Under the pieces are notes generated by a model. It had not been told where the DNA came from. It saw only the letters and a list, made by a program, of their open reading frames with translations, and searched no databases. Position numbers and translations under genes: made by a program. This document shows, piece by piece, positions 5,452 through 21,202 of a stretch of 64,000 nt of DNA. The DNA comes from an uncultured Lachnospiraceae bacterium (GTDB lineage: Bacteria; Bacillota; Clostridia; Lachnospirales; Lachnospiraceae). Location: contig CACWHK010000002.1 in the NCBI GenBank assembly GCA_902760755.1, positions 61,059-125,058 on the forward strand, written 5' to 3'. Each line of letters starts with the position of its first letter. Position 1 is the first letter of the stretch.

Positions 5452-5880
5452 ATGGAACTGAATTCCAACCAGATTCAGGAGATCCTGCCGCATCGTTATC
5501 CGATGCAGCTGGTAGATAAGATCACGGACTTCGAGCCGGGTGTCTGGGCAGAGGGTATCAAATGTGTAACCGTCAATGAGCCCTTCTTCCAGGGACATTT
5601 CCCGGAGGCACATGTGATGCCGGGAGTTCTCATCATCGAGGCACTGGCACAGACCGGAGCGGTTGCGATCCTTTCCGAGGAAGCATATAAGGGGAAGATC
5701 GCCTTCTTCGGCGGAATCAGGAATGCCAGGTTCCGTCAGCAGGTTCGTCCCGGAGACGTACTGACTCTTCGCTGCGAGATCACGGAGCGTAAGGGACCGG
5801 TGGGCTTCGGCAAGGCCGTTGCAAAAGTTGGTGATAAGGTTGCCGCGCAGGCGGAAATCTCTTTCGTCATAGGTGAATAA
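5452..5880 (+). CDS. fabZ: 3-hydroxyacyl-ACP dehydratase
   Basis: A 142-residue hot-dog-fold dehydratase that removes water from 3-hydroxyacyl-ACP. The catalytic His is in LPHRYPMQLVDKI, and the catalytic Glu region is GHFPEAHVMPGVLIIEALAQ. It starts on the base after the fabF stop and is the last recognisable fatty acid gene of this run. Nine bases downstream begins a structured element (5889-6064) whose long hairpin could end or process the operon transcript. Confidence 0.96.
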   Translation: MELNSNQIQEILPHRYPMQLVDKITDFEPGVWAEGIKCVTVNEPFFQGHFPEAHVMPGVLIIEALAQTGAVAILSEEAYKGKIAFFGGIRNARFRQQVRPGDVLTLRCEITERKGPVGFGKAVAKVGDKVAAQAEISFVIGE

Positions 5881-5888
5881 CGGAGTAC

Positions 5889-6064
5889 GATTCACGTCCG
5901 CATACGAATGATTGCATTCATACGCTTGCGTGAATGGATGTGATCATTCGTATGCGGACTGCGAAGCAGGACCCGCAAACGCCGCATCGTCCATGAGCGC
6001 CGGAGGCGCGGCATACGTGCGAAGCACGGATGGGACGATGCCGGAGGATGCGGGGACGTGAATC
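5889..6064. repeat. Branched intergenic element, copy A (about 176 bp)
   Basis: Outer arms GATTCACGTCC (5889-5899) and GGACGTGAATC (6054-6064) are exact reverse complements. Inside are a long hairpin with 15-bp arms at 5898-5912 and 5943-5957; a mini hairpin CTGC-GAA-GCAG (5959-5969); a stem GCATCGTCC (5984-5992) with GGACGATGC (6033-6041); and, within that, two mini hairpins GCGCC-GGA-GGCGC (5997-6009) and CGTGC-GAA-GCACG (6016-6028). The same layout occurs at 21203-21376 and 47786-47975 with different stem sequences. The element occupies most of the 230-bp gap between fabZ and the marR gene. Whether it acts as RNA, terminator or mobile repeat cannot be told from sequence alone. Confidence 0.8.
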
Positions 6065-6110
6065 AAAAATAATATGATCATTATCTGGCAGGGAAGGAGG
6101 CTGGAAAAGT

Positions 6111-6653
6111 ATGTCCGGACCGGATCAGACAACTACAGAGAATATCGAGCAGAATCCCCTGCATGAGGTGTATTCGAAGTTTCGGGTATACTATTATCGG
6201 GATGTCTTCAAGCGTATCCAGAGTCGGGAGCTGTCGCTCTCGACGACGGAGGCGTACTGTATCGAGGTGATCGGAGCCCTGGGGACGCCGAGCATCAATG
6301 AATTTGCGGATTTCATCGGGATCTCCGCACCGAATGCAACCTACAAGGTGAACTCCCTGATCAAAAAGGGATACCTTACCAAGGTGCAGTCCGGCACCGA
6401 CAAGCGGGAGTTCTACCTGCAGGTGACGGAGAAGTATTATAAGTACTGGAACATCAACAAGAAATACATGGATATCGTGGAGGAACGTCTGAAGAAGAGA
6501 CTCACGGAAGAGGAATTCGAACTGTTCAACCGGATCATGCGCATGGTCTCCACGGAAATGATGCCTGAGGTTCCGATCCAGACACCGGGGAAATCGGAAC
6601 AGAAACAGACGGAAGAGGTGTTGCCGAAGGAGGCAGGGGAGGATGTGGAATGA
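6111..6653 (+). CDS. MarR-family transcriptional regulator
   Basis: A 180-residue winged-helix protein. The DNA-binding part lies at about residues 40-110 (LSTTEAYCIEVIGAL, INEFADFIGISAPNATYKVNSLIKKGYL, DKREFYLQVTEK), followed by a charged C-terminal helix and an acidic tail. It follows the fatty acid genes on the same strand, and FabT, the fatty acid repressor of streptococci, is also a MarR protein next to fab genes. A role in controlling the fab operon is therefore possible but unproven. It overlaps the next gene by ATGA, so it is co-translated with the alarmone synthetase. Confidence 0.88.
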   Translation: MSGPDQTTTENIEQNPLHEVYSKFRVYYYRDVFKRIQSRELSLSTTEAYCIEVIGALGTPSINEFADFIGISAPNATYKVNSLIKKGYLTKVQSGTDKREFYLQVTEKYYKYWNINKKYMDIVEERLKKRLTEEEFELFNRIMRMVSTEMMPEVPIQTPGKSEQKQTEEVLPKEAGEDVE

Positions 6654-7258
6654 GCATTTACGAAGCATTCGAGCCGAAACTGAATTATGTGATGGATCAG
6701 CTGCAGACGGAGCTGCGGTCCTATGACCGGATGCGGTTTGAGGAGACAGGTGATCATATCTATGAGCATATCTCTGCCCGGATCAAGACCGATGAGAGTA
6801 TGCGGGAGAAGTGCAGACGGAAGAATCTGCCGGAGAATGCCCACAGCGCGCTGCACGAGCTGCAGGATGCCATCGGCATCCGGATCATTTGCGCCTTCCG
6901 GGATGATATCTACGGAATCCTGGAGCATATCCGGAATCTTCCCGGGGTTACGATCGTGGAAGAGATCGACTATATCCGGCACGCAAAGCCCAACGGGTAT
7001 CGGAGCTATCATCTGATCCTTTCGGTGGAGACGGCCTTCGAGGATGTGGAGGGTAAGACTCCCGGTCATTATTTCGTTGAGGTCCAGCTTCGGACCATAG
7101 CCATGGATTCCTGGGCAAGTCTGGAGCATAAGATGAAGTATAAGAAGGATGTGAAGAATCAGGCCCTGATCGAGGCGGAGCTGAAGCGCTGTGCCGACGA
7201 GCTGGCGGCCTGTGATGTATCGCTGGAGACGATACGGAATCTGATCCGCTCCAGTTAA
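6650..7258 (+). CDS. Small alarmone synthetase (RelA/SpoT synthetase domain only), first copy
   Basis: A 202-residue single-domain (p)ppGpp synthetase. It transfers pyrophosphate from ATP to GDP or GTP. Visible motifs are the G-loop-like RIKTDESMREK (about residues 44-54), DAIGIRIICAF, HAKPNGYRSYHL, and EVQLRTIAMDSWASLEHKMKYK with the conserved Glu residues. There is no HD hydrolase, TGS or ACT domain, so it belongs with the RelP/RelQ class. It is coupled by ATGA overlap to a MarR regulator and followed 17 bp later by a two-component system. A second synthetase is encoded at 10291-10965. Confidence 0.92.
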   Translation: MSIYEAFEPKLNYVMDQLQTELRSYDRMRFEETGDHIYEHISARIKTDESMREKCRRKNLPENAHSALHELQDAIGIRIICAFRDDIYGILEHIRNLPGVTIVEEIDYIRHAKPNGYRSYHLILSVETAFEDVEGKTPGHYFVEVQLRTIAMDSWASLEHKMKYKKDVKNQALIEAELKRCADELAACDVSLETIRNLIRSS

Positions 7259-7275
7259 TGTAAGAGGGTGTTACT

Positions 7276-7953
7276 ATGCGAATACTATTGGCAGAAGACG
7301 AAAAGCCCCTGTCCAAGGCGGTTGCAACGGTTCTGGAAATGAAGGGCGGTTACACGGTGGATGCGGTCTATGACGGCGAAGCTGCGGTGGAAGCAGCCAG
7401 AGAGCATGTTTATGATGCCTGCGTCTTTGATATAATGATGCCGAAAATGGACGGGATCACGGCGCTGGAAACCCTCCGGAAGGAAGGAAATACCACACCG
7501 GTTCTGATGCTGACGGCGAAGGCAGAGCTGGATGACCGGGTCAAGGGGCTGGATGCCGGCGCGGATGATTATCTTCCGAAGCCCTTCCAGATGGCAGAGC
7601 TTTTGGCAAGACTCCGTTCCCTGACCAGACGGGCTTCGGAATACCGTCCGAAGAAGCTGCAGGCAGGACGGGTGACGCTGGACCTGGAGCAGCAGGAGCT
7701 GCACTGTGAGAATTCCATCCGGCTTTCCAAGAAGGAAGCACGGCTTATGGAATATCTGATGGCAAACCCGGACATGGAGTTTACCGTGGAAGAGCTGCTG
7801 GCTCATGTATGGCAGGAGGAAGAGGTTGACAGAGAAGTGGTCTGGGTCTACATTTCCTACCTGAAGAGTAAGCTCTACGCGGTGGCTGCGGACCGGACCA
7901 TAGACGGCCCGGAGAAAGGCCCCTTCCGTCTTGTGGAGGTAAAGGAGCCGTAA
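7276..7953 (+). CDS. OmpR/PhoB-family response regulator
   Basis: A 225-residue protein with an N-terminal receiver domain (acidic DE pair near residue 8, phospho-acceptor Asp in DACVFDIMMPKMDG, conserved Thr and Lys in MLTAKAELDD and DDYLPKPF) and a C-terminal winged helix (about residues 125-222) that should bind DNA. It lies 45 bp before a histidine kinase gene and the two form a standard pair. The inducing signal and targets cannot be read from the sequence. Confidence 0.94.
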   Translation: MRILLAEDEKPLSKAVATVLEMKGGYTVDAVYDGEAAVEAAREHVYDACVFDIMMPKMDGITALETLRKEGNTTPVLMLTAKAELDDRVKGLDAGADDYLPKPFQMAELLARLRSLTRRASEYRPKKLQAGRVTLDLEQQELHCENSIRLSKKEARLMEYLMANPDMEFTVEELLAHVWQEEEVDREVVWVYISYLKSKLYAVAADRTIDGPEKGPFRLVEVKEP

Positions 7954-7998
7954 CCAAAGGATTCATAACCGAAGAATCAAAGGAAGGGAGGATGCGCC

Positions 7999-9225
7999 AT
8001 GATCAGAAAACTGAAGATAAAATTCGTTGCGATCTCCTCGGCTGCCATGCTCCTGGTGCTTCTGATCGTTCTCGGTATCGTAAACGGATTCAGCTACTAC
8101 AACACGAAGATTGAGATCTTCTCCGTTATGTCCCGGATCTCGGAGAACGGAGGATTCCTTCCGGATGAGCTGGAGTATCGCTCCATCATCGGAGAGGCGA
8201 TCCTTACGGATGAGGCCATGTACAGTCTCCGGTTCTTCTCCGTGATCACGGATTCCAGCGGTCTGGTGGTAAGCGTGGACCGCGGGCATGTGGCCACCAT
8301 TTCCGAAACGGAGGCGAAGACCCTTCTGCAGAAGGCGATGCGCCGGGGAAGCCAGGAAGGCTTCTTTAATGACGAGGATTCCACCTATGCCTATCAGAAA
8401 ACGGAGATCTCCGGCGGCCTGTCTCTTTGCGTAATCATGGACTGCACGAGACAGCTGCATACTGTGCGGATGTTTGCTCTGGCTTCCATCTATATCGGAA
8501 TTGCATCCATGCTGCTTTTGCTGCTGATCCTTTCCTTCTTTGCGAAGAAGGCGGTGGCACCGCTGGCAAGGAACATCGAGAGCCAGAAGATGTTCATCAC
8601 AAATGCGAGTCATGAGCTGAAAACGCCCCTGGCCATCATTTCCGCCAACACGGAGGTACTGGAAATGACGGAAGGCAAGAATGAGTGGACGGAGAGTACG
8701 CTGGAGCAGGTGAAGCGAATGACGGAGCTGATTTCCCATCTTATTACCCTGTCCAAGCTGCAGGAAAAGGACGAGGTTGTGCTGACCGAGGTTTCAATCT
8801 CCGAGGTGACGGAGAAGGTGTCAGATGAGTTCCGGATCCTGGCGGAGAAGAATGGTCTATCCTATGAGACCGAGATCGCAAAGAACCGGATCGTGAAGGC
8901 GGACGAGGGAGGACTCCGGGAGCTGGTTTCCATCCTGATCGATAACGCCGTAAAGTATTGCAGCGAAGCAGGAACGGTCCGGGTGGTCCTGGAGCCGAAG
9001 GGGCACAGCACGGTCCTGCATGTATCGAATACCTATCCGGAGCAGGAGGGTATGGATTACAGCCGATTCTTTGAGCGGTTCTACCGGGCAGACGAGTCCC
9101 ATAACAGTGAGAAGAAGGGCTTCGGGATCGGGCTTTCCATGGCAAAGCATTTTACGGACATGTTCAGGGGAAAGATCAGTGTGAATTACAGAAACGGAAT
9201 GATCACCTTTACGGTTGTTCTGTGA
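7999..9225 (+). CDS. Membrane sensor histidine kinase
   Basis: A 408-residue kinase paired with the preceding regulator. It has an N-terminal membrane segment (about residues 12-34), an extracytoplasmic loop of about 115 residues, a second membrane segment (about 155-177), a phospho-acceptor helix NASHELKTPLAIISANTEVL, and a catalytic ATPase domain with N-box (ILIDNAVKY), FERFYRAD and GFGIGLSMAKHF. No clear HAMP domain is visible between the second membrane segment and the histidine helix. A GGAAGGGAGG ribosome binding site precedes the ATG. Confidence 0.93.
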   Translation: MIRKLKIKFVAISSAAMLLVLLIVLGIVNGFSYYNTKIEIFSVMSRISENGGFLPDELEYRSIIGEAILTDEAMYSLRFFSVITDSSGLVVSVDRGHVATISETEAKTLLQKAMRRGSQEGFFNDEDSTYAYQKTEISGGLSLCVIMDCTRQLHTVRMFALASIYIGIASMLLLLLILSFFAKKAVAPLARNIESQKMFITNASHELKTPLAIISANTEVLEMTEGKNEWTESTLEQVKRMTELISHLITLSKLQEKDEVVLTEVSISEVTEKVSDEFRILAEKNGLSYETEIAKNRIVKADEGGLRELVSILIDNAVKYCSEAGTVRVVLEPKGHSTVLHVSNTYPEQEGMDYSRFFERFYRADESHNSEKKGFGIGLSMAKHFTDMFRGKISVNYRNGMITFTVVL

Positions 9226-9227
9226 GG

Positions 9228-9274
9228 GGAGACAGGGGACGGTTCTCGGAGACAGAGAACCGTCCCCTGTCTCC
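9228..9274. repeat. Perfect 20-bp palindrome of the GGGGACGGTTCTC type (REP-like), probable terminator
   Basis: Positions 9228-9247 and 9255-9274 are exact reverse complements around a seven-base loop, two bases after the kinase stop codon. The core GGGGACGGTTCTC matches a repeat I recall as common between genes in Firmicutes and near REP-associated Y1 transposases; that link is memory, not shown here. No transposase is nearby. No T-run follows at once, so termination here would rely on this stem or on the next hairpin. Confidence 0.65.
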
Positions 9275-9300
9275 CTCCTGTCTCCCGCATAAAAAGGGAT

Positions 9301-9329
9301 AACCGGATGGGCTTTTGGTCCATCCGGTT
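9301..9329 (+). terminator. Hairpin after the two-component operon
   Basis: AACCGGATGG (9301-9310) pairs with CCATCCGGTT (9320-9329) around a nine-base loop. There is only a weak T content downstream. Together with the palindrome at 9228-9274 it probably closes the marR-kinase transcription unit. Confidence 0.45.
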
Positions 9330-9539
9330 ACGTTAGTGAAGGTTAAAATATAATGATTAAAGAAGATTTAGGGGATCTTCTTTAAACAGGGGGCATAACT
9401 CACAAAATCTTTGTAAAATAAATATAGCGGATTTCCTGCATTTGTTATACAATTATTATGTGGTTTTTAGAAACTTTTTGGCAGGATTTTATAGATTTTC
9501 ATCCGCATGTAGGGGCATGCGGGAAAGGCGGTGAACAAT
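9330..9539 (+). promoter_or_regulatory. AT-rich leader before the AraC gene with two hairpins sharing a TAGGGG loop
   Basis: This is the AT-rich part of a 314-bp gene-free stretch. Two hairpins have nearly the same loop. AAAGAAGAT (9359-9367) pairs with ATCTTCTTT (9375-9383) around TTAGGGG. CCGCATG (9503-9509) pairs with CATGCGG (9516-9522) around TAGGGG, ending just before the AAGGCGGTG ribosome binding site. The AT-rich run TTGTTATACAATTATTATG near 9440-9460 probably holds the promoter, but a good -35 was not clear. Loop-shared hairpins near a start codon suggest binding of a regulator to the mRNA, which is an inference. Confidence 0.4.
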
Positions 9540-10280
9540 ATGGCAAATATCCATGATGAATTCACCCAAAAACTATTTCAGGGGCGCGAGGAAGAGAAAA
9601 AGCATCCTGCTTTTGAAGGTGAAATGGGGTTGTACAATCTGATCGCTGAGGGGAAGCCCGAACGGATCGAGGAGTACCGGAAGGGGAAGCCGGAGTCGGA
9701 CGCCAAGGAGCGAGGTGTACTGTCGGAGAATCCGCTCCGGAATGTCATGTATCATTTTGTTGCGATGACGACCATGATCACGCGGGTCTGCATCAGCCAC
9801 GGGCTGGAGCAGGAGATCGCTTACAAGATGAGCGACAGCTATATCAGCCGGGCGGATAAGCTCAGCAAGCCGGAACAGGTGCGGGAGTTCCAGACGGAGA
9901 TGATAATGGGCTTTGCAAAGACCATGCAGCGTCGTCAGAAGGATGCTGTGCATTCCGTTCAGATCGTAAAATGCATGGATTATATCGGGAATCATCTGCA
10001 TGAGAAGATCACCATGGATGATCTTGCGAAGCATGTGAACCTGAACGAGACGTATCTCTCCAAGCTGTTTCGGAAGGAGACGGGTCTTTCCGTCAGTGAG
10101 TATATCCGGGATAAGAAGATCGAGGAGGCCAAGGGTCTGCTCCGGTTCTCGGAGAAGACCAGCATCGAGATCGCAACGGATCTCGGATTCACCTCCCACA
10201 GCTACTTTATCAGCGTATTTAAGAAGGTGACGGGGGAGACCCCGAAGGATTACAGAAACCGGACCTTCCGGAAGATGTAA
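9540..10280 (+). CDS. AraC-family transcriptional regulator
   Basis: A 246-residue protein with a C-terminal double helix-turn-helix AraC domain (about residues 145-243): MDDLAKHVNLNETYLSKLF, VSEYIRDKKIEEAKGLL, IEIATDLGFTSHSYFISVFKK, ETPKDYRNR. The N-terminal part is an all-alpha region of unknown ligand. I chose the ATG at 9540 over the in-frame GTG at 9531 because the AAGGCGGTG ribosome binding site is correctly spaced only from the ATG. It lies 10 bp before the second alarmone synthetase, so the two are probably co-transcribed. Confidence 0.9.
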   Translation: MANIHDEFTQKLFQGREEEKKHPAFEGEMGLYNLIAEGKPERIEEYRKGKPESDAKERGVLSENPLRNVMYHFVAMTTMITRVCISHGLEQEIAYKMSDSYISRADKLSKPEQVREFQTEMIMGFAKTMQRRQKDAVHSVQIVKCMDYIGNHLHEKITMDDLAKHVNLNETYLSKLFRKETGLSVSEYIRDKKIEEAKGLLRFSEKTSIEIATDLGFTSHSYFISVFKKVTGETPKDYRNRTFRKM

Positions 10281-10290
10281 GAGGTAAGGT

Positions 10291-10965
10291 ATGGACAATC
10301 TGACAGTAACATCCGAACAGGTCGAAGAACTCGCTAAGAACTTCTCCAGAACTGATGATTTCGTGCGGGTCATGACCTATTATCGTTGTGCGATCATGGA
10401 GATCCAGACGAAGCTGAACGTGCTGAATCAGGAATTCTCCCTGCAATATGATCGTAATCCTTTTGAATCCATAGAGAGCCGTCTGAAGAAGCCGGAGAGC
10501 ATCGTGGAGAAGATGCTCCGGAGAAATATTCCTCTTACGGTGGAGGATATGGAGCAGGAAATGACGGACATCGCGGGGATCCGCGTGATCTGTTCCTTCC
10601 AGGAGGACCTTTACAATCTGGCGGATCTTCTGGTGGAGCAGGATGACGTGCTGCTCATTTCCCGTAAGGATTATATCGCAAATCCGAAACCCAATGGATA
10701 CCGGTCTCTGCATCTGCTGATCGATATCCCTATTTTTCTGTCCCAGGGCAAGAAGCATATGAAGGTGGAGGTCCAGTTCCGGACCATTGCCATGGACTTC
10801 TGGGCCAGCGTGGATCATAAGCTGAAGTATAAGAAGAACATCCGGGACGCCGAGGCGGTGGTCGGAAAGCTGAAGATCTGTGCAGATACCCTTGCCCGGA
10901 TGGATGCTGAGATGGAAGAGATCCGCAGGACCATTGATGCGGATGGAGAAAAGCTACATGAGTAA
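10291..10965 (+). CDS. Small alarmone synthetase (RelQ/YjbM-like), second copy
   Basis: A 224-residue single-domain (p)ppGpp synthetase. It shows RLKKPESIVEKMLRR, DIAGIRVICSFQEDLY, NPKPNGYRSLHLL, and EVQFRTIAMDFWASVDHKLKYK, with a helical C-terminal tail (about residues 185-224) like the tetramer-forming tails of RelQ. The catalytic Glu in EVQ is present; the usual EH pair reads DH here. It differs clearly from the copy at 6650-7258, so this is not a recent tandem duplication. It overlaps the next gene by eight bases. Confidence 0.92.
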   Translation: MDNLTVTSEQVEELAKNFSRTDDFVRVMTYYRCAIMEIQTKLNVLNQEFSLQYDRNPFESIESRLKKPESIVEKMLRRNIPLTVEDMEQEMTDIAGIRVICSFQEDLYNLADLLVEQDDVLLISRKDYIANPKPNGYRSLHLLIDIPIFLSQGKKHMKVEVQFRTIAMDFWASVDHKLKYKKNIRDAEAVVGKLKICADTLARMDAEMEEIRRTIDADGEKLHE

Positions 10966-11677
10966 AAAAAGAGGCGCAAAGAAACGGATGCTGCTGGTTC
11001 TGAAGATCGTTGTTGCATTTATCCTGTTCCTGGTCATAGCGACGGTGGCTATGAATCTCTTTGTATTTCTGAATGGAAACCGGTACGTCCGGACCACGGC
11101 GGAGTGGAAGGAAGCAGTGACGGGAGACGGGGCGGAGGATCCGGAGTGCATCCTGGTGCTGGGCTGCAGCTACTATCCGGGCGGAGAACCAAGCCCCATG
11201 CTGAAGGACCGGCTGGACCGGGCTGCGGAGCTTTACTACATTTCCCCGAGGAAGATCATCGTCAGCGGAGATCATACCCCGGAGGAGTACTATAACGAAG
11301 TAAAGGCCATGAAGGAGTATCTGGTGGGGATTGGCATTCCCTCCGAGGATATCTACATGGACCATCACGGATATTCCACCTATGAGAGTATTTACCGCGC
11401 ATACTATGTCTTCGGTGTGCGGCGGATGACCATCGTGACACAGACCTATCACCTGTTCCGGGCAGTTTATCTGGCCCGTGCCTTCGGGATCGAAGCGGAC
11501 GGTGTGGCTGCGGAGCGGGAGGAGTACAGCGGATCCATCGGAAGAGAGACGCGGGAGGTCATTGCAAGAAATAAGGATTTCCTGTATGCCATCTTCCGGC
11601 CTGCGCCCGCGAAGTATGGGGATGATAAGGTATCCCTTCAGGACAGCGGGGATCTGACGGACGAGTGGACAGAGTAA
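10958..11677 (+). CDS. SanA/YdcF-like DUF218 membrane protein
   Basis: A 239-residue protein with a Lys/Arg-rich N-terminus and one membrane segment (about residues 12-34), then a DUF218 domain facing outward (LVLGCSYYPGGEPSPMLKDRL, KIIVSGDHT, STYESIYRAYYVFG, IVTQTYHLFRAVYLARAFG). Homologues such as SanA are linked to envelope barrier function; the reaction is not established. The start at 10958 is the ATG that overlaps the alarmone synthetase stop; longer in-frame starts would lie inside the upstream gene. A Nudix gene follows after 19 bp. Confidence 0.85.
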   Translation: MSKKRGAKKRMLLVLKIVVAFILFLVIATVAMNLFVFLNGNRYVRTTAEWKEAVTGDGAEDPECILVLGCSYYPGGEPSPMLKDRLDRAAELYYISPRKIIVSGDHTPEEYYNEVKAMKEYLVGIGIPSEDIYMDHHGYSTYESIYRAYYVFGVRRMTIVTQTYHLFRAVYLARAFGIEADGVAAEREEYSGSIGRETREVIARNKDFLYAIFRPAPAKYGDDKVSLQDSGDLTDEWTE

Positions 11678-11696
11678 GGATACTGGAGGATGAAAC

Positions 11697-12260
11697 ATGA
11701 GGTTTCAGAAGCTGGAGAAGCGGGAAGAGGGACGGTTTATCACGCGGTACAACCTGACCTACGAGACCGCGGCCGGGACAGAGAAGGTATATGAAATGAT
11801 CAGCCGTGATAAGAACATCACGGATTTTGCAGAGCTGCATGACAGGGGACCGGACGCGGTGGTCCTGATCATGCATAGTGAGGACGGGGAACAGGTGCTT
11901 CTTAATAAGGAGTTCCGGCTGGCTCCGGGAGAGTGGGTTTACAACTTTCCCGCAGGGCTGATCGATCCGGGAGAGAATGCGGAACAGGCTGCAGCCCGGG
12001 AGCTTCGTGAGGAGACGGGCCTTACCCTGGTGGAGATCACGGATCATATCGGCGAGAGCTACAGCGCCGTCGGCTTTTCGAATGAGAAAAATGTATGTGT
12101 TGTCGGAACGGCCCGGGGAGAGATCATCGGAAGCGATTCCGACGTGGAGGAGATCGAGGCCGGCTGGTATACGAAGGAGGAGGTCCGGAAGCTCCTGAAG
12201 ACTGCGCGGTTTGCCGCAAGAACACAGGCCTACTGTTACCTCTGGTCTAAGCAGAAGTAG
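11697..12260 (+). CDS. Nudix hydrolase (ADP-ribose pyrophosphatase type)
   Basis: A 187-residue Nudix protein. The box GLIDPGENAEQAAARELREE, continuing into TGLT, fits GX5EX7REUXEEXGU and lies at about residues 88-110. The N-terminal half resembles the ADP-ribose pyrophosphatase (NudF) group. It likely hydrolyses a nucleoside diphosphate linked to another group; the exact substrate is not certain. It sits in the same run as an alarmone synthetase, and some Nudix enzymes act on (p)ppGpp, but nothing in this sequence proves that. Confidence 0.88.
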   Translation: MRFQKLEKREEGRFITRYNLTYETAAGTEKVYEMISRDKNITDFAELHDRGPDAVVLIMHSEDGEQVLLNKEFRLAPGEWVYNFPAGLIDPGENAEQAAARELREETGLTLVEITDHIGESYSAVGFSNEKNVCVVGTARGEIIGSDSDVEEIEAGWYTKEEVRKLLKTARFAARTQAYCYLWSKQK

Positions 12261-12272
12261 GCTCGGGAGGAC

Positions 12273-13529
12273 ATGCGATTGAATAATATGCGACTGAATA
12301 AACGACTGAAAAAATGGATCTGGCTGCCGGTTCTTTCGGCGGCCATGTTTGTAACTGCCCCGTTGATGCTGCATGCGGAGGAGACTCCGGACGTGGATAC
12401 GGGGGTAACGGACGCACCCGGGGATCTCATGCCCCCGGAGGAGGTGTTCTTCGGCTGGCATCAGCTGGAGGACGGCTGGCACTACTATGATCCCGAGACG
12501 GGGATCATGCAGACCGGCTGGGTGGAAAGCAAGGGACGCTGGTACTATCTTAGCCCCGAAACGGGCGTCATGCAGACCGGCTGGCAGAAGGTGGGAAAGC
12601 GCTGGTATTACTTCTCGCCGAAGACCGGAGCCATGTGGACGGGCTGGCTGCAGGACAAAGAAGACTGGTACTATCTGGATAAGAGCAGCGGAGCCATGAA
12701 GACCGGCTGGCTGCAGCAGGGAAAGCGTTGGTACTTCTTCCGGCAGACCGGTGCCATGCTGACCGGGTGGCTGTCCCGGCAGAAAAACTGGTATTATCTT
12801 AGTCCTGCCACCGGTACACTCTGGAGCGGATGGCTGGAATACGAGGATCACTGGTATTTCTTCGAGAAGGAAACCGGGATCATGAAGACCGGATTCCTGC
12901 AGCAGCGGGGAAAAACCTATCTTCTTCGCACCGGCGGAGAGATGGCAATCGGCTGGGAGACCATTGACGGGAAGAAGTATTACTTTAAGGATTCCGGAGA
13001 GATGGCCGTGCAGGAGGTTCTTTCCATCAACGGGAAGCGGGAAGGCTTCTCCGGGGCCGGGGACTGGCTGGGAGAGAAGTCGGGTGCTTTCCTGGATGCC
13101 TACGGCAAGGCGGTCAGTTTTGTTCAGAAGAATACGGATTCGTCCATGACGAAGGAGCAGAAGCTCCGGAAGTGCTTTGACACGATCCGTGATACATTTT
13201 ACGAGAAGAATCCGTGGATCCCGCACTACACAGGAACGGACTGGGCCGAGAAGTACGCATCCGCGGGCTTTGATTCGGAGTCGGGCAACTGCTTTACCTT
13301 CGGGGCATGTATGGCCTTTGCGGCACGGGCTGTGGGTTATGACGAGGTTTATGCCTGCAGCAGCGGAGGACACGGCTGGGCAGAGATCGGCGGTGAGGTG
13401 TATGATCCGGAATGGACGAAGCATGCAGCCGGAAACTACTTCGGACGACCGCTGAAGAAGGGGGATTCCCCGAACTATCTGGGCGCTGTTACCCGGTCCG
13501 GTGACAGCTGGACCTACCGAAGGATCTGA
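12273..13529 (+). CDS. Secreted cell-wall-binding repeat protein with transglutaminase-like C-terminal domain
   Basis: A 418-residue exported protein: positively charged start, hydrophobic signal (LPVLSAAMFVTAPLMLHAEE), about ten choline-binding-type repeats of about 20 residues (W-YY...TG-M-TGW, about residues 55-255), and a C-terminal papain-like/transglutaminase-like domain. The likely catalytic triad is Cys in SGNCFTFGA, His in GGHGWAEI, and Asp in YDPEW. The repeats should hold it on the wall or on surface polymers, and the C-terminal domain may cross-link or cleave peptides. The first 15 bases of the gene are imperfectly duplicated in tandem, so the start may be 12273 or 12288. Confidence 0.85.
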   Translation: MRLNNMRLNKRLKKWIWLPVLSAAMFVTAPLMLHAEETPDVDTGVTDAPGDLMPPEEVFFGWHQLEDGWHYYDPETGIMQTGWVESKGRWYYLSPETGVMQTGWQKVGKRWYYFSPKTGAMWTGWLQDKEDWYYLDKSSGAMKTGWLQQGKRWYFFRQTGAMLTGWLSRQKNWYYLSPATGTLWSGWLEYEDHWYFFEKETGIMKTGFLQQRGKTYLLRTGGEMAIGWETIDGKKYYFKDSGEMAVQEVLSINGKREGFSGAGDWLGEKSGAFLDAYGKAVSFVQKNTDSSMTKEQKLRKCFDTIRDTFYEKNPWIPHYTGTDWAEKYASAGFDSESGNCFTFGACMAFAARAVGYDEVYACSSGGHGWAEIGGEVYDPEWTKHAAGNYFGRPLKKGDSPNYLGAVTRSGDSWTYRRI

Positions 13530-13533
13530 GAAA

Positions 13534-15000
13534 ATGACATTCAGTTCACTGGTATTTTTATGCATATTTCTTCCGGGGACTTTTCTGCTTCACAGTGCGA
13601 TTCCGAACCTTCGGGTTCGGAACGCACTGCTGATCGTGGCGAGTCTTCTTTTCTATGCCTACGGAGAGCCGGTGTATATCCTGCTTCTTCTTGCCAGTGT
13701 ACTGCTTAACTATCTGGCGGTGCTTCTGATGACGGGACGCCGGAAGAAGCTGATGCTGGTTCTGGCGATCCTCCTTAATCTATGTATTCTTATTACCTTC
13801 AAATATCTGGGGTTCCTGATCGGTTCGGTAAATGAGCTTCTCGGAACGAATCTTGCGGTTCCGGGAATCCGTCTGCCCATCGGAATCTCCTTCTTTACCT
13901 TCCAGGCACTTTCCTATGTGATCGATGTATATCGGGGAGAAGCAGAGCGGGAGAGGAATCCCTTCCGCGTACTGCTTTATATCTCCTTCTTTCCGCAGCT
14001 CATCGCGGGACCTATCGTAAGGTTCCGGGATATCGCTGCGCAGCTACGGAGTCGCGAGGTCCGGATCGACCGTGCGGCCCTCGGCTTCCGGAGGTTTCTC
14101 TTCGGTCTTTCCAAGAAGGTGCTGATCGCAAATACCATGGCCGTGGTCGTGGATTCGATCTTCGAAGCAGACCTTGTAAATGTGAATCTCCTTACGGCAT
14201 GGATTGGGGCGATTGCGTTCCTGTTACAGATCTACTTTGATTTCAGCGGTTACAGTGATATGGCCATTGGCATGGGGCAGATGTTCGGCTTCCGGTTCCG
14301 GGAGAATTTCGACTTCCCGTATGCGGCAACCAGTATCAGGGAGTTCTGGAGGCGCTGGCATATCTCTCTTTCCACCTGGTTCCGGGAGTATGTCTATATC
14401 CCGTTGGGCGGAAACCGGAAGGGGAAGCTTCGCACGGCACTGAACAAGCTGATGGTATTCTTCCTCTGCGGCCTCTGGCACGGTGCGCGGTGGACCTATG
14501 TGCTGTGGGGCCTCTTCCACGGAGCTTTCAGCTTCCTGGAGGAATTCGTGCCGAAGCTTCGGAAGCTGCCTCGCGTTCTGGGACACCTTTATGCCATGCT
14601 GGTGGTTACCATCGGCTTTGTGATCTTCCGTGCGGATACCGTCGGGGAAGCCTTCGGAATGATCGGAAGGATGTTCGGCGGATATGATTTCAGTACCGCG
14701 ACCATGTCCTTTGTACTGCAGCAGCTGACGCCATTTTTCCTTGTCATGCTGGTGGCGGGAATTCTGCTTGCAGGACCGGCAGAGGGGCTCGTGAAGCGAA
14801 TCCGCTTTGGAACCGGTGCTGCGGATTTCGGCATGAATCCGAATGGAAAGGCAGGGCTTTCGGAAGGAGGAGAAAAGACGGTCGGAGGAAGTGTGATCCT
14901 TCAGTCTGTCCTTTACCTTGCAGCATTTCTTTTACTGCTCTGGTGTCTGCTCCGTCTCTCCGGAGGGGCATACAATCCGTTTATCTATTTCCGATTCTGA
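13534..15000 (+). CDS. MBOAT-family membrane O-acyltransferase (AlgI/DltB-like)
   Basis: A 488-residue multi-span membrane protein. It carries MBOAT signatures PIGISFFTFQALSYVIDVYRG, FPQLIAGPIVRF, FDFSGYSDMAIGMGQMFGF, REFWRRWHISLSTWFREY, and the catalytic His in GLWHGARWTYVLWG. It would move acyl groups across the membrane to a wall or extracellular polysaccharide acceptor, working with the AlgJ/AlgX-like protein encoded next. I chose ATG 13534; upstream in-frame codons lie inside the previous gene. It starts five bases after that gene ends. Confidence 0.92.
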   Translation: MTFSSLVFLCIFLPGTFLLHSAIPNLRVRNALLIVASLLFYAYGEPVYILLLLASVLLNYLAVLLMTGRRKKLMLVLAILLNLCILITFKYLGFLIGSVNELLGTNLAVPGIRLPIGISFFTFQALSYVIDVYRGEAERERNPFRVLLYISFFPQLIAGPIVRFRDIAAQLRSREVRIDRAALGFRRFLFGLSKKVLIANTMAVVVDSIFEADLVNVNLLTAWIGAIAFLLQIYFDFSGYSDMAIGMGQMFGFRFRENFDFPYAATSIREFWRRWHISLSTWFREYVYIPLGGNRKGKLRTALNKLMVFFLCGLWHGARWTYVLWGLFHGAFSFLEEFVPKLRKLPRVLGHLYAMLVVTIGFVIFRADTVGEAFGMIGRMFGGYDFSTATMSFVLQQLTPFFLVMLVAGILLAGPAEGLVKRIRFGTGAADFGMNPNGKAGLSEGGEKTVGGSVILQSVLYLAAFLLLLWCLLRLSGGAYNPFIYFRF

Positions 15001-15058
15001 TCAGGACGGAGGAATCGGATATTTGCAATTATGAAATCTTACGGAAAGGAGGTGCGGT

Positions 15059-16612
15059 ATGTCAAAGCACGAAGATCTGAAAACGGAAAACCATAAGAAA
15101 CCCAACAGAGATGAAAACCGAAAAGAAGATCTGATCCCGGGCACAAAGAAGCTTACGGTGCTCCAGGTTATTTTCCTCGGCCTCGGCATGCTGGTCTGCC
15201 TCGTCCCATTTATCGGCATGGCCTTTCACCCGACGGAGGACAGCACGGAGAATAAGATACCTGCCGTGTACCCCTCCGTGACGCCGAAGGACGGAGGTCT
15301 TAATACAGAGTATTTTGAACAGTTCGACGCCTGATTCAATGAGCATTTTGCGTTCCGAAATGAACTGGTGGCAGCGGATGCTTACGTACAGGGGATCCTG
15401 TTCAAAACCTCTGCGGAAGAGCAGGTAATCTACGGAACGGACGGATGGCTCTACTACAGCTCCACGCTGGGAGATTATCTGGGAACGAACTGTATGACAG
15501 AGCGGGAGCTCTTCAATCTGAAGCATAATCTGCAGATCGTAAAGGAGTGGACGGACAGTCAGGGGGTTACGCTGGTGCTTGCGGTTCCGCCGAACAAGAA
15601 TACTTTGTACGGAGAACATATGCCGTATTATGATTCCATGATCGTAGATCAGGAGCATACCATCGATTCCCTGGCCGCAATCTGCAGGGAGATCGGGCTT
15701 CCTTATGCGGACCTCCTCACGCTTTTCCGTGGAGAATCCGAGGAGCTTTATCTGAAGCGGGACTCCCATTGGAACGGAAAAGGAGCGCTTCTGGCCTACA
15801 ACCGGATCATGGAAACTGCGGATCAGGCCATGCCGGATGGCTATACGGAAAAAGCATGGGAGGATGCTCTCCCGATGGATCGGTGGTCCTACGAGGACTA
15901 TTCCTCTGCACCGGCGACCCGTTCAAAGGATGCGGACGGAGACTTAAACCGTATGCTTTACACCTTCTATGGAGAAAAGGAGATGGATACGCACTATGAT
16001 GTAACACCGTCCTTTACTTATACAACGAAAACGGGCAGTGTGGAGGATGCGTGGATCTGTACGAAGAATCCGGAGAAGGAGAGAAGCCTTATCATGTTCC
16101 GGGATTCCTTCGGGAATACACTGCTTCCCTACGTGGCAGATCAGTTTGGAACTGCCTGCTTTACCAGAGAGGCACCCTACCGCCTGCAGAAGCTGGTGGA
16201 GGAACAAAGGTCGAAGATAACACTGGTGGTGATTGAAAAGGTGGAGAGAAATCTGAAGGATTTCATCACGCTGCCGCCGATCCTCTTTGCTCCGGAGACA
16301 GAGCTTCCGTCCGAGACTCCCTCGAAGGAACCTGTGGATGAAACGCTGTTGGAGCTGAAGGCTAAGATAAATGAGTATGATCCTTCCATGGTTCAGATCT
16401 CCGGCGTGGTTCCGGAGGATATGCTGGGTACGGAAACAGAGATCATTCTTACGGTAGACGGAATGGGTCGGAAGGTGTATCATACCGGAAGCAACGGATT
16501 TATGGTATATCTGGACGCGTCGGAGCTTTCCGGCGGAGCCTGCCGGGTGCAGGTACTCCTGAAGGATGGAGTGTCGTACCGGATGATCGCCGAGACGAAC
16601 CTGGTATACTGA
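15059..16612 (+). pseudogene. AlgJ/AlgX-like (DHHW family) O-acetyltransferase partner, interrupted by an in-frame TGA
   Basis: One frame runs 15059-16612 (517 sense codons) but contains TGA at 15332-15334. Before it: a charged N-terminus, a membrane anchor (VIFLGLGMLVCLVPFIGMAF) and a segment ending EYFEQFDA. After it: FNEHFAFRNELVAAD, GTDGWLYY, the SGNH-like KRDSHWNGKGA, and MFRDSFGNTLLPY with a probable catalytic Ser. Homologues usually have an aromatic residue at the stop site (Trp or Tyr before F-N-x-H-F), so TGG to TGA is the simplest explanation. The remainder is intact. It could be a recent pseudogene, a sequencing error, or low-level readthrough; a GTG at 15368 could restart translation without the membrane anchor. 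Confidence 0.82.
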
Positions 16613-16655
16613 ACCGAGGATGGGAAATCCTTCGTGTCTTAAAATGACCGGAGCA

Positions 16656-16690
16656 TGTCATTCTGAGTGACCGAAGGAAACGAAGAATCT
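16656..16690 (+). repeat. TGTCATTCTGAG...GAAGAATCT dispersed repeat
   Basis: A 35-bp segment opens with TGTCATTCTGAG and closes with CGAAGAATCT. Related sequences occur inverted at 50042-50076 and 63077-63107, and an expanded copy lies inside nnr at 42968-43049. I recall this repeat type as common between genes in many bacteria. It lies in the 104-bp gap before the DUF348/G5 lipoprotein. Confidence 0.6.
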
Positions 16691-16716
16691 GATAGATATT
16701 AGGAGCTGGTGAAGAT

Positions 16717-17649
16717 ATGAAGAAAAAACTGCCATTATCATGCCTGTTGTTTATGCTGATCCTTCTGCTTACCGCCTGCGGCAGGAAGGCGGAGATTACG
16801 ATCCACGACGGAACCGTGAATACGAAGGTGGAGGTTTCTCTTCCGAAAACCGTGGATGAGATCCTGAAGGAGGCGGAGATTTCTGTTGCGGAGAAGGATG
16901 AAGTGAATCCTTCCGGAGGAACCGAGCTGCAGGAAGCTGCAGAGATCACGATCCGCCGGAGATGGAAGCTTACCATTACAACCGACGGAAGTGATACGAA
17001 GGAGGTGGAGATCCTCAGCGGAAGCACGGTGAAGGATGTGCTGGAAAAGGAAGGGATCACACCGGCAGAGAACCAGTCCCTGAATGTAAAGGAAGAGGAC
17101 CCCGTGCAGGAGGGGATGACCATTGAGATCACAACCTCCAACGGTGTTACGGTGGTACATGACGGAAAGATAGAGAAAATCGAATTCGGTGTCGGGACCG
17201 TCGGGGATGTACTGGAGCGGATGAACATTTCCCTTGGGGCGGAGGATACGGTGACACCCGAGAAGACGGAGGCGGTAAAGAACGGGACGAAGATCGTCAT
17301 CGCCCGGGTGACATACGAAGAGGTCACAACGTCGGATACGATCCCGTACGAAACAATACGTAAGGATGACAACTCTCTCGAAAAAGGGAAAGAGAAGACG
17401 GAGGTTGAAGGAGTGGTCGGCGAGAAGACCACCACCTACCGAGTGAAGAAGGTGGACGGAAAGGAAGAAAGCCGCGAAGAGAAAAATAGCGAAGTGATAA
17501 AGCCACCTGTAAACGAAGTTATCCTGGTGGGCACGAAGCAGGGCCGCTATGAGGTCTCCCGCGTTGCCGTACCGAACTGCGCGGACGGAAGCCACGGCTA
17601 CTACGAAATCACCTACTCCGACGGAAGTGTCGAGTATGTGGAGTATTAA
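16717..17649 (+). CDS. Lipoprotein with DUF348 repeats and a G5 domain
   Basis: A 310-residue lipoprotein: signal peptide with lipobox LLTACG (Cys about residue 21), three DUF348 units (V-V-E-ILKEAEI, V-DVLEKEGI, V-GDVLERMNI patterns, about residues 25-195), then a G5 domain (IPYETIRKDD, EVEGVVGEKTTTYRVKKVDGKE, PPVNEVILVGTK). The same layout occurs in YabE/Rpf-like wall proteins, but those end in a catalytic 3D or lysozyme-like domain. Here only a 35-residue tail follows, so it is probably a binding protein at the wall rather than an enzyme. Confidence 0.85.
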   Translation: MKKKLPLSCLLFMLILLLTACGRKAEITIHDGTVNTKVEVSLPKTVDEILKEAEISVAEKDEVNPSGGTELQEAAEITIRRRWKLTITTDGSDTKEVEILSGSTVKDVLEKEGITPAENQSLNVKEEDPVQEGMTIEITTSNGVTVVHDGKIEKIEFGVGTVGDVLERMNISLGAEDTVTPEKTEAVKNGTKIVIARVTYEEVTTSDTIPYETIRKDDNSLEKGKEKTEVEGVVGEKTTTYRVKKVDGKEESREEKNSEVIKPPVNEVILVGTKQGRYEVSRVAVPNCADGSHGYYEITYSDGSVEYVEY

Positions 17650-17665
17650 ACGGTTCGTCAGAATG

Positions 17666-17698
17666 ATCCCCGTATCTGTCATATGACAGAACGGGGAT
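17666..17698 (+). terminator. Terminator after the DUF348/G5 lipoprotein
   Basis: ATCCCCGT (17666-17673) pairs with ACGGGGAT (17691-17698), and the interior TCTGTCAT/ATGACAGA extends the stem with one bulged A. A T-rich run (TTTGTAATTATTT) follows a few bases later. It separates the lipoprotein gene from the ABC transporter genes. Confidence 0.75.
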
Positions 17699-17774
17699 GC
17701 TTTGTAATTATTTAATTTCTGTTTAATAATTTCGCGATATTCTATGTTCAGAACAAAGCGAAAGGAGAAAATCC

Positions 17775-20123
17775 ATGCTGTTTCGAATGCTGAAAAAAGA
17801 TCTCTCGAAGAAGCGCGTGATGAACTGCATATTAACTCTTTTTATCCTGCTTGCGACACTCTTCGTGGCCAGCGGAATCTCCAATGTGATCACCGTGATG
17901 AACGGTTCGGATTTCTTCCTCGATAAGGCCGGTCTGGGGGACTATGTGGTCCTTACGATGCGGGAGGGAGGATACACCGCACTGGATGATTTCCTGAAGG
18001 ATAATCCGAATGTGAAGGGCTATCGTCTGGAGAAGGTTGTCTATTCGGAAAAAAGCGATTATCGGATCAACGGGGAAAAGATCAGCCTTAGCAGCACGGC
18101 GGTCCTCACCGATATCAGTGACAACGGGCTGACGTATTTTGATAAAGACAATCAGGTGATCGAAACGATCACACCGGGGCACTGCTATGTATCCGGCCAT
18201 TTCCTGACGGAAAATAACTGTGCGGTGGGTGACACCATTCAGTATAAAAAAGGCCGGGTTGAGCTTTCCCTTCTGATCGACGGGACCATGAAGGATGCGG
18301 TGTTCGGATCGGAAATGATGGGAAATGTCCGTTTGCTCCTATCTCACGAGGATATGGAGAAGGTTCGGGCCGACGAGGAAACGGTTCGGTACTATGGCGG
18401 AGAGATGTCCTATATCGATACGGATGACGTAAAAGCACTGGCAGCATCTCTCACGGATGTGGATAACATCGGGTTTGACGGCGCGAGAGTTATGATCAAA
18501 ACCACCTATGTGATGAGTCTCATCCTTGCATTTATCGTTCTGATCCTTTCGGTGGTCCTGATCGTTGTGTCCTTCCTGGTTCTTCGTTTTGCCATCAATC
18601 TTTCCATCCTGGAGGATTATCACGAGATCGGTGTAATGAAGGCCGTCGGGATCCGGGTGGCAAAGATCCGAAGCATGTATGCCTCCAAGTATTTTACGCT
18701 TGCCATCGTGGGCACACTGATCGGAGGAGCCTTAAGCTTCCCCTTCGGAAAGGTTCTGATCGATTCGGTAAGTAAGAATATGGTACTCGGAAATGATTCG
18801 GATGTACTTGCCCATATCATCGGCGCGCTTCTGGTAGTGTTGGTGATCTCGGCATTTGCATGGCGGGGAACAAAGAAGGTAAAGAAGATGTCTCCCGTGG
18901 ATGCCATCCGGAACGGACAGACCGGGGAACGCTTCCGAAAGAAGAAAGGAAAGCGGATCGCAAAAACCAGAGGAAGCTCCGAAATGTTCCTTGCACGGAA
19001 CGATCTTAGCAGCACGCCGAAGCGGTACCTCTCGGTAATCCTGTCCATCGCGATCTCCATGATGCTGGTTCTGGTGATCGTTAATACCTCGGAAACCATG
19101 CTGGGTGACCGGTTTATCGATTCCTTTGCGGCAAGAAGTGATCTCTATATCGGGACTCTGGAATCAGGTCTGATCAAGGACAGAGAACAGATGGACGCCT
19201 ATATGGAGGAGCTCGCAAAGAAGATCACGGACGCCGGAATGCCCTGTACCATAAGCACGGATATTCAATATGTGTATAACACCGTTGTTGACGGAAAAGC
19301 CTATAAGCTGAACTATCAGCAGGGGATCAATACGACGGCCGCGGATTATAAGTATCTGGACGGAATGATCCCCCAGAATGCAAATGAAGTTGCAATCACG
19401 GATTCTATCCATGAGAAGACCGGCCTTTCCATCGGAGATACCTTTACCGTGGATTTCGGGGAGCAGAAAATCGAATGCCTGGTAACGGCAACCTATCAGA
19501 CCATGAACAATATGGGCGACATCATCCGTTTCCATGAGGATGCGCCTACGGATCTGAAGCACTATAAGGCCATGCTGGCATGGCAGGTGAACTTCACGGA
19601 TCACCCGGATGCAAAGGAGATCGATGCAAGATGTGAACGCCTGAAAGAGCTTCTAAATACCGACGAGGTCAGAAATGCTGCTGATTTCTGTTCAAAGACC
19701 ATGGGTGTTGCTGACACCATGGTAACGGTACAGAATCTGCTTCTGATCATTACGCTGATCGTGGTTCTTCTGGTAATCGTCCTGATGGAGCGGTCCTTTG
19801 TGGCAGATGAGAAGAGCCAGATCGCTATCCTGAAGGCGGTGGGCTTCCGAAACAATATCATCGTGAGATGGCATGTGCTCCGGTTTGCAATCTGTGCGGC
19901 AATCGCCGTGGTTGCGGCTATCGTACTTTCCATCCCCATGACATATCTTTGCATCACGCCGATCTTCCGGATGATGGGACTGAAAACCGTGGATTATGCC
20001 ATCAATCCGCTGAAGCTAGTCATTTACACCGGTATCGTATTTGTCTTCACGATCCTGGTGGCATGGATCACCGCGCAGTGCGTAAGAAGAGTCAAGAGCA
20101 GCGATACGGCCAACAATGAATAG
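17775..20123 (+). CDS. FtsX-type ABC transporter permease
   Basis: A 782-residue membrane protein. After an N-terminal membrane helix (about residues 18-40) comes an outside domain, three central membrane segments (about 235-365), a conserved cytoplasmic link (AWRGTKKVKKMSPVDAIRNG), a second helix near 420, another outside domain, and three C-terminal membrane segments (about 655-770) with DEKSQIAILKAVGFRN. This two-FtsX architecture is found in MacB-like and peptide-resistance exporters, which move or extract substrates at the outer face rather than transporting through a channel. The ATPase is encoded downstream at 20434. Confidence 0.9.
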   Translation: MLFRMLKKDLSKKRVMNCILTLFILLATLFVASGISNVITVMNGSDFFLDKAGLGDYVVLTMREGGYTALDDFLKDNPNVKGYRLEKVVYSEKSDYRINGEKISLSSTAVLTDISDNGLTYFDKDNQVIETITPGHCYVSGHFLTENNCAVGDTIQYKKGRVELSLLIDGTMKDAVFGSEMMGNVRLLLSHEDMEKVRADEETVRYYGGEMSYIDTDDVKALAASLTDVDNIGFDGARVMIKTTYVMSLILAFIVLILSVVLIVVSFLVLRFAINLSILEDYHEIGVMKAVGIRVAKIRSMYASKYFTLAIVGTLIGGALSFPFGKVLIDSVSKNMVLGNDSDVLAHIIGALLVVLVISAFAWRGTKKVKKMSPVDAIRNGQTGERFRKKKGKRIAKTRGSSEMFLARNDLSSTPKRYLSVILSIAISMMLVLVIVNTSETMLGDRFIDSFAARSDLYIGTLESGLIKDREQMDAYMEELAKKITDAGMPCTISTDIQYVYNTVVDGKAYKLNYQQGINTTAADYKYLDGMIPQNANEVAITDSIHEKTGLSIGDTFTVDFGEQKIECLVTATYQTMNNMGDIIRFHEDAPTDLKHYKAMLAWQVNFTDHPDAKEIDARCERLKELLNTDEVRNAADFCSKTMGVADTMVTVQNLLLIITLIVVLLVIVLMERSFVADEKSQIAILKAVGFRNNIIVRWHVLRFAICAAIAVVAAIVLSIPMTYLCITPIFRMMGLKTVDYAINPLKLVIYTGIVFVFTILVAWITAQCVRRVKSSDTANNE

Positions 20124-20146
20124 CAGACTACGAGTAGCAGACTACG

Positions 20147-20367
20147 CTGCCCGGCCTGATTGCTCCATGCAGTTCCATTCCGCGACAGCCGTTTGCACTC
20201 CGGATTCACGACGTAGCGGCTTCGTACAGGATTATGCGTAATCAGCTCCTTCGGATGCTTCTTACTCATAATCCTGCACACTAGGGCGCTGCAGGCATCG
20301 CCCAAGTGCCGACGTCGTGAAACGGTCGCGGAATGAAACTCATGTCGCATCTGATCGGCCGGGGCAG
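20147..20367. repeat. Long imperfect inverted repeat between permease and ATPase genes
   Basis: This fills most of the 310-bp gap between the two transporter genes. CTGCCCGGCCTGAT (20147-20160) is close to the reverse complement of 20353-20367. Further in, CATTCCGCGAC pairs with GTCGCGGAATG, TTCACGACGT with ACGTCGTGAA, and CAGGATTATG with CATAATCCTG. The apex holds a small TCC-TTC-GGA hairpin, and GGGCG/CGCCC forms a side stem. It could act as an mRNA-processing or attenuation structure, setting the permease to ATPase ratio, or be a degraded MITE-like insert. No coding function is visible. Confidence 0.6.
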
Positions 20368-20433
20368 CTGAATACAGATAATCCCGTTTGCCGTATCCAT
20401 GGTAAAGGGGACCTAAAGAAAGGGGTATAAGAA

Positions 20434-21198: not shown

Positions 21199-21202
21199 GG
21201 AC

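Follow-up and report, generated by a model that had tools for sequence, protein, structure and literature searches.

A small mobile element of Lachnospiraceae that keeps a branched fold and is related to Clostridiales-1

Three intergenic stretches in a 64-kb piece of DNA from an uncultured Lachnospiraceae bacterium (the whole piece is referred to here as the window) share one branched layout of stems, and the question raised by this locus is what kind of entity such a family represents. The copies belong to a small mobile DNA element found in bacteria of the gut and rumen; its sequence changes rapidly, yet its branched fold is kept. This element is newly linked to an Rfam family already known, Clostridiales-1 (RF01699), and both are small transposable elements with interiors that are under pressure to keep their fold. 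The three copies in the window are probably old insertions of a MITE-like, non-autonomous element of Lachnospiraceae, about 190 bp in length and with a fold-keeping interior, which is termed R1-type below.

The copies in the window and their relatives

All copies follow a common plan, in which stem P1 links the two ends, P2 is a hairpin capped by CTTG or CCTG, P3 is short and a two-part stem, P4, holds the hairpins P5 and P6. In the window copies, P1 measures 11-14 nt and the arms of P2 22-26 nt. The parts are located as follows.

5887-6067, plus strand: copy 1, a match of 179 bits to covariance model R1 (G000:C2:66945-67125)
5452-5880 and 6111-6653: neighbours of copy 1 (Pfam), a FabA-domain gene with its stop codon at 5878-5880 and a MarR-like gene
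5889-5899, plus strand: 5' arm of P1 in copy 1, a terminal inverted repeat, 11/11 complementary to 6054-6064
6054-6064, plus strand: 3' arm of P1 in copy 1, complementary to 5889-5899
5896-5959, plus strand: long hairpin P2 of copy 1, arms 5896-5921 and 5934-5959, apex CTTG
5959-5969, plus strand: mini hairpin P3 of copy 1, CTGCGAAGCAG, read from the letters and seen in the fold
5984-6041, plus strand: P4b of copy 1, arms 5984-5992 and 6033-6041, enclosing P5 (5997-6009) and P6 (6016-6028)
21201-21379, plus strand: copy 2, R1 match of 165.3 bits, immediately 3' of the stop of an ABC transporter gene (20434-21198; Pfam)
Stems of copy 2: P1 21199-21210/21369-21380, P2 21214-21269, P3 21271-21285, P5 21311-21323, P6 21330-21345 (P6 read from the letters)
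47788-47974, plus strand: copy 3, R1 match of 171.7 bits, RF01699 match of 42.9 bits at 47794-47935; the 5' arm of P1 includes the TAA stop of a YebC/TACO1-like gene (47054-47788; Pfam)
Stems of copy 3: P1 47786-47799/47962-47975, P2 47799-47863, P3 47865-47877, P5 47904-47916, P6 47923-47935
47989-48122, plus strand: partial tandem repeat of copy 3 with period 119, comprising half of P3, P4 with P5 and P6, and the 3' arm of P1, then a short third start

The original prediction, that one layout from P1 to P6 is common to the three copies, was confirmed. The arms are present in each, and the minimum-energy folds have z scores of -10.5, -10.6 and -13.5 for copies 1, 2 and 3, with none of 200 shuffles as good in any case; a fourth copy of the same genome (L006) has the same layout and a z score of -12.3, again with 0/200 shuffles as good. 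The mini hairpins had also been said to carry mostly GAA or GGA loops. The window has 111 triloop hairpins with a stem of at least 5, in which these are indeed the commonest loops (9 and 7, respectively); nine of the 16 belong to the three elements or to the tandem repeat that follows copy 3, which includes mini hairpins at 48023-48035 and 48042-48054. The period-119 repeat (window 47870-48122) begins inside P3, and partial second R1 matches lie 3' of the element in 6 of 70 searched loci, as if the P4 module were the repeating unit. No match was returned by an Rfam scan of the whole 64-kb window at curated cut-offs. A fourth foldable gap occurs at 20165-20350 (z -7.9; reverse strand of 20195-20330, z -8.0), with a minus-strand Clostridiales-1 match of 30.8 bits at 20209-20317, and is perhaps a divergent antisense relative.

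Model R1 was built from seven copies of the window's own genome (alignment A1), in which it gave 35 matches at E up to 10, including 14 full copies with E <1e-31. The search of related genomes with a covariance model, which had been proposed as a check, found relatives in 22 of 25 genomes of the genus (own included; E 0.01) and in 60 of 299 evenly sampled Lachnospiraceae genomes (E 1e-4); in the 299-genome scans, with R1 and with RF01699, nine candidates were scored per genome, so that copy numbers are lower bounds. Outside the family, one of 16 genomes matched (E 0.007; threshold E 0.01). Within the genus, genome G002 has 36 R1 matches. Of 72 loci from a wider contig scan, 13 are supported by R1, each of them carrying the label Lachnospiraceae bacterium or Eubacterium sp., and the remaining 59 are without an R1 match at E 0.01.

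Covariation and the strand that folds

A larger alignment (A2) comprises 76 R1 matches from 70 loci, 14 from the own genome and 56 from relatives, the latter taken from the best-ranked matches. All 65 pairs show at least one two-sided change and 95.4% of 4610 cells are paired, against 63.7% in shuffles and 26-43% (maximum 43.4%) when the partner is slid by 1-3 positions; A2 was fitted to the model structure, on account of which the absolute covariation counts lean, and the size of this gap is not due to the fitting. Copies that occupy the same site in different species were also compared. Such groups were defined by BLAST of the flanks among the 70 copies, giving 14 groups and 40 comparisons, some groups being joined on one flank only; the site of copy 3, for example, is the same place as those of L047, L050, L084 and L100. 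Among 2509 pair cells at shared sites, 1721 are the same, 550 are compensated, 78 carry a one-sided change that still pairs and 160 are broken (107 by one-sided and 53 by two-sided change). The covariation is real, and a pressure to keep the fold is strongly supported: the stems covary as had been claimed, and the feared disappearance of the signal in a larger alignment was not seen. The accompanying claim, that the shape is conserved and the sequences differ, stands for the shape, but there is kinship in sequence too, with a median pairwise identity of 49% among the 70 full copies.

The types of pair bear on the strand. Across the 76 rows there are 4271 Watson-Crick pairs, 128 G-T pairs and 40 A-C mismatches, and this excess of G-T over A-C indicates that one strand folds, namely the plus strand of the element. 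It also argues against a double-stranded cruciform, which would not yield such a bias; of the original alternatives, a structured RNA or a DNA cruciform under selection, the selected fold is therefore upheld and the double-stranded cruciform is not. G-U makes up 3% of standard pairs in A2, a share that is low for RNA. Among the 70 copies the loops are also kept: P2 ends in CUUG in 55 and P3 in GAA in 65, P5 and P6 have mostly GNA loops, and the 2x2 loop under P6 reads UA/GA in 23, GA/GA in 22 and GA/GC in 11. Selection at the level of RNA is likely.

The strongest rival to RNA selection is that pairing is kept by a DNA process, either quasi-palindrome template switching, in which the near-palindromic element would fold on a single DNA strand at replication and have one arm corrected from its partner, or a transposase that needs hairpin DNA. 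Intermediates are few, the 550 compensated cells contrasting with 78 in which a one-sided change is tolerated, and transversions are frequent among the compensations, including AT to TA, AT to CG and GC to CG. In addition, two-sided changes in P2 are somewhat clustered (173 adjacent, against a permutation mean of 149, sd 7, and a maximum of 172 in 1000). This clustering, together with the transversions, makes hairpin-templated correction of DNA a live rival, and GNA triloops are very stable in DNA as well. However, the loops of P3, P5 and P6 are kept and the 2x2 loop alternates between UA/GA and GA/GA, for which correction of the arms alone is insufficient; the arms of P1 lie about 150 nt apart with other hairpins between them; and the sense orientation behind stop codons in the genus, described below, points to RNA. 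A DNA process is thus regarded as unlikely, though it deserves more weight than the remaining rivals. Same-site copies that have swapped stem letters and yet remain paired offer a ready test of RNA selection against DNA hairpin repair.

Mobility and the relationship to Clostridiales-1

R1-type copies in other genera are mostly cleaner than those of the window's genus, with GTTACTATTCAC at one end and GTGAATAGTAAC at the other. Of 20 such copies, 8 lie between perfect direct repeats of 7-12 nt (in the null, 1.6% for 7 nt and zero from 8 nt upwards); when the element is taken to run from GTTAC to GTAAC, five of these eight duplications are 8 bp long (AACGCACG, CGCAACAC, GAAAAAAG, TTAAAATG and ATTCCCCT). 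Two hallmarks of a MITE-like element were found, namely terminal inverted repeats, in the form of the 11-14 nt P1 arms of the window copies, and target-site duplications, in the 8 of 20 copies from other genera. It is well supported that the element is mobile DNA, a reading that rests on the target duplications; given these together with the inverted repeats, P1 is also the transposon end, closing stem and inverted repeat coinciding. The exact 12-letter end GTTACTATTCAC occurs in 11 of 13 genomes examined, with 0-42 occurrences per genome and none in the own genome or in G162, against a control pattern that is absent from 12 of the 13 and present 1+1 times in G162. Around such ends in G337, G182, G265 and G295, deletion forms and short inserts were read: two-ended shorter forms of 54, 62, 97, 98, 101, 103 and 176 bp have duplications of 8 nt, in some cases with a single mismatch. 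Duplications also flank inserts that are very short or keep one end (14-19, 78 and 102 bp), again with one mismatch in some. An 8-nt repeat with at most one mismatch was present within 300 nt of 20 of the 35 ends tested (null 11.7%).

In the own genus, target duplications are nearly absent (1 of 70 copies at 7 nt or more) and mobility there therefore rests on presence and absence. Strains had been proposed for comparison in search of empty sites, and the gaps of copies 1 and 3 were compared among genomes of the genus. The gap of copy 1 holds an R1 match in one of the 28 genus genomes that gave the upstream gene and in none of the other 27; yet the flanks are too divergent for the exact joint to be read, and one site without an R1 match (G010, L283) retains a 15-letter piece identical to the P6 region of copy 1, so that loss as well as gain must be considered. 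In 6 of 30 genomes the gap of copy 3 holds the same subtype, truncated in one of them by the end of the contig; three further genomes have R1 matches there that are more divergent. Shreds that by eye resemble R1-type parts lie behind the YebC-like gene at L264 and L269 and behind the FabA-like gene at L283, where R1 finds nothing, as if elements decay in place.

Although the family had not been recognised as a known RNA class, which holds in so far as Rfam cut-offs are concerned, comparison of the models points to a clear relative. In copy 3, the alignment with RF01699 spans the full model and scores 42.9 bits (E 3e-8), against a curated cut-off of 48, and the two models match each other's members over the full model. 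With RF01699, 4 of 14 own copies are found at E 0.001 or better (best 42.9 bits) and 4 of 20 R1-type copies from other genera at E 0.1 or better (best 40.9), the cut-off of 48 bits being reached by 0/14 and 0/20, respectively; in the reverse direction, R1 recovers at E 0.0023 or better four of the five RF01699 members that lie above the cut-off in the own genome. Judged on these alignments, R1-type is a sister element of Clostridiales-1, below the Rfam cut-off and with the same kind of interior. Both have a P1 that joins the ends, a long CUUG-capped P2 and a GAG...CGGA hairpin with a GNA-type loop, and both are multi-copy in Lachnospiraceae. They differ in that Clostridiales-1 has a separate last hairpin, whereas P5 and P6 of R1-type are nested in P4; in Clostridiales-1 this hairpin, with a GGGAG/CGGAG internal loop, comes after the third stem, and in copy 3 it aligns with P5 in P4, its outer pairs being unformed. 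Clostridiales-1 was found in 156 of the 299 Lachnospiraceae genomes, in 130 of them above the cut-off; among 14 control genomes, four gave RF01699 matches at E up to 10, below the cut-off, and none at E 1e-4.

Clostridiales-1 is also a mobile element, with ends other than those of R1-type (TGATRYCAGGGTC in place of GTTACTATTCAC, and duplications of about 6 rather than 8 bp). One genome (G078) carries nine copies that are at least 94% identical to one another (mean 97.9%) and lie in unlike flanks. Twenty copies were fetched, of which seven (L209 and six of G310) lack such an end within 80 nt and were set aside, and all 13 with a readable 3' end, from G078, G087 and G067, are flanked by direct repeats of 5-7 nt (null 8.5%). 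The tail that follows the Rfam part in the G310 copies (L216-L221) is unlike that of G078 and contains, by eye, a further hairpin-like stretch of the tttcatg...catgaaaa kind. In the literature on Clostridiales-1/RF01699 and on MITE-like elements, no paper was found that, by title or abstract, calls Clostridiales-1 mobile. Rfam types it as gene, sRNA, and in the available part of Weinberg et al. 2010 (PMC2864571) it is classed as likely RNA and not cis-regulatory, and is presented there without a role. An orphan Rfam family and its new sister thus become mobile elements with defined ends, in hosts from a family of bacteria that is central to life in the gut and the rumen.

These findings also bear on a second rival, that the family is a free-standing small RNA or a cis-regulatory RNA that is multi-copy by chance. 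The strong fold and the covariation would suit such an RNA, as would the classing of Clostridiales-1 as likely RNA by Rfam and in that part of Weinberg et al. (PMC2864571). The terminal repeats and target duplications, the occurrence of nearly identical copies at sites that are unrelated, and the internal-deletion forms are instead those of a transposable element, and presence and absence between species fits one too. A free small RNA alone leaves the ends and duplications unexplained and was rejected as such; it is improbable, and could persist as a passenger function only.

Position behind genes, possible role and candidate mover

The copies in the window had been noted to begin 0-9 bases from a stop codon, and this extends across the genus: of the 65 copies with sufficient upstream sequence, 51 lie in sense after an open frame (150 codons or more) whose stop falls between -12 and +20 nt relative to where the element begins; on the antisense side the count is 8 of 69. 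The preference is weak in other genera (6/18 against 3/20 antisense), on which basis it is read as reflecting either retention in this genus or the targets of that lineage; among the fetched Clostridiales-1 copies the counts are 3/20 and 1/20. One genus copy lies antisense between tRNA genes in a tRNA cluster (L026:682-863, minus), which speaks against a sense-behind-stop rule. A further copy lies in sense between the 3' end of 23S rRNA and tRNA genes (L195:1001-1182, minus).

The most likely role is that of a compact domain, predicted to be transcribed within the 3' or intercistronic region, that would make an insertion tolerable, the same domain perhaps steadying the upstream message. The proposed course of events begins with inverted-repeat ends, mostly GTTACTATTCAC, which form P1 and, in genomes with recent activity, leave target duplications of 8 bp, the element DNA presumably being moved by a transposase acting in trans. 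The interior, with its CTTG-capped P2 and GNA-capped P3, P5 and P6, stays paired as its letters change, as seen at shared sites in different species, and the bias among its pairs indicates that one strand folds. Insertions that survive in the genus would be those in sense behind stops, where the fold would be transcribed as part of 3' untranslated or intercistronic RNA. It may then be selected as a compact RNA domain that leaves transcription and the next ribosome site undisturbed, and may also shield the 3' end of the upstream message, the insertion being tolerated and kept; this account is given about even chances against other RNA roles.

A broader and more tentative reading, held with somewhat less than even confidence, is that the RNA fold is a passenger that has become joined, in Lachnospiraceae, to at least two types of transposon end, which double as its closing stem, with the RNA making insertions behind stops harmless or useful and Clostridiales-1 forming one branch. 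The end types concerned would be GTTACTATTCAC with duplications of 8 bp and TGATRYC...GGGTCAAAAG with duplications of about 6 bp. If true, the passenger would be a splice-free counterpart of the IStron, in which a group I intron is combined with an IS; work on IStrons (PMC4227781) describes a structured RNA that likewise travels with transposon ends of more than one family and is said there to render insertions harmless. The group I intron core of IStrons has no match in R1-type copies, Rfam having returned none in the window or in the five stretches and 34 loci scanned because they contain copies.

The preferred reading, a MITE-like element with a fold-keeping interior, can be set against two better-known classes of repeat. 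Bacterial MITEs, of which a Porphyromonas example exists, are small non-autonomous transposons and share with R1-type elements the terminal inverted repeats, target duplications, deletion forms and presence or absence between species, no gene of their own being expected at such a size. R1-type elements differ in keeping a branched covarying fold across the divergence of species, and ordinary MITEs are not known to keep one for as long. BOX, REP/BIME and REPIN repeats are intergenic, foldable and multi-copy with modules in tandem, as are R1-type elements; the latter are set apart by a large branched fold in which every pair shows two-sided changes.

Position behind stops could also be accounted for by plain intrinsic terminators, in which P2, as a hairpin of A-tract, GC stem and U-tract, would end the upstream transcript. 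In the lower part of P2, most pairs have A in the 5' arm and U in the 3' arm, and a U run of at least 4 is present in the P2 3' arm of 33 of 70 copies. The other 37 have no U run >3, copy 1 included (its arm has no run >2), the U-rich stretch is itself paired, and P3 to P6 are left unexplained; a terminator consensus scan of 5800-21500, covering copies 1 and 2, gave a single terminator-like site within copy 2, on its minus strand, and nothing in copy 1. With a U run >3 missing from 37/70 P2 3' arms, a simple terminator was rejected as a general account and is decidedly improbable; the concern that the family might reduce to a trivial terminator match was accordingly not borne out.

A candidate for the mover of R1-type elements is the IS4 transposase of L345. 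This unit of 1748 bp has 31-nt terminal repeats that begin GTTACTATTCACAG, with starting letters GTTACTATTCAC, flanking 8-mers that agree in 7 of 8 letters, and a 471-codon frame that matches the IS4 family transposase at 167.8 bits (cut-off 115; Pfam DDE_Tnp_1). The protein has a match in 5 of 19 genomes searched. None of the seven homologs examined has GTTACTATTCAC ends; five have ends of the CAATGTCATT type, sharing the inner CAATGTCATT part, and two have no clear ends. Alternatively, the IS could have settled inside a short derivative of the element. Spread by reverse transcription, in the manner of a SINE, is very improbable: it would explain inserts that keep the 3' end alone with 8-nt duplications, like 5'-truncated copies, and by reading all four distinguishable one-ended duplicated inserts are 3'-end pieces (L232, 19 bp, and L322, 16 bp, exact; L240, 78 bp, and L244, 102 bp, 7/8), yet the L240 repeat overlaps element letters and may reflect microhomology, L227, L235, L238 and L241 are assignable to neither end, and one-ended pieces without duplications retain either end. 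The idea was mostly dropped in view of two-ended deletion forms with duplications, which are at least as common, the 18-bp insert L346, which retains both outermost five bases, and the existence in L345 of an IS with the same ends. L244 also holds an inverted piece of P3.

Two palindromes occur elsewhere in the window, at 9227-9275 (core GGGGACGGTTCTC) and, similar to it, at 31786-31833. In G002, three IS4-like ISs (L368, L372 and L373) lie within stretches of the same letters as these palindromes and, by reading, are flanked by 7-letter direct repeats, GACGGTT or AACCGTC.
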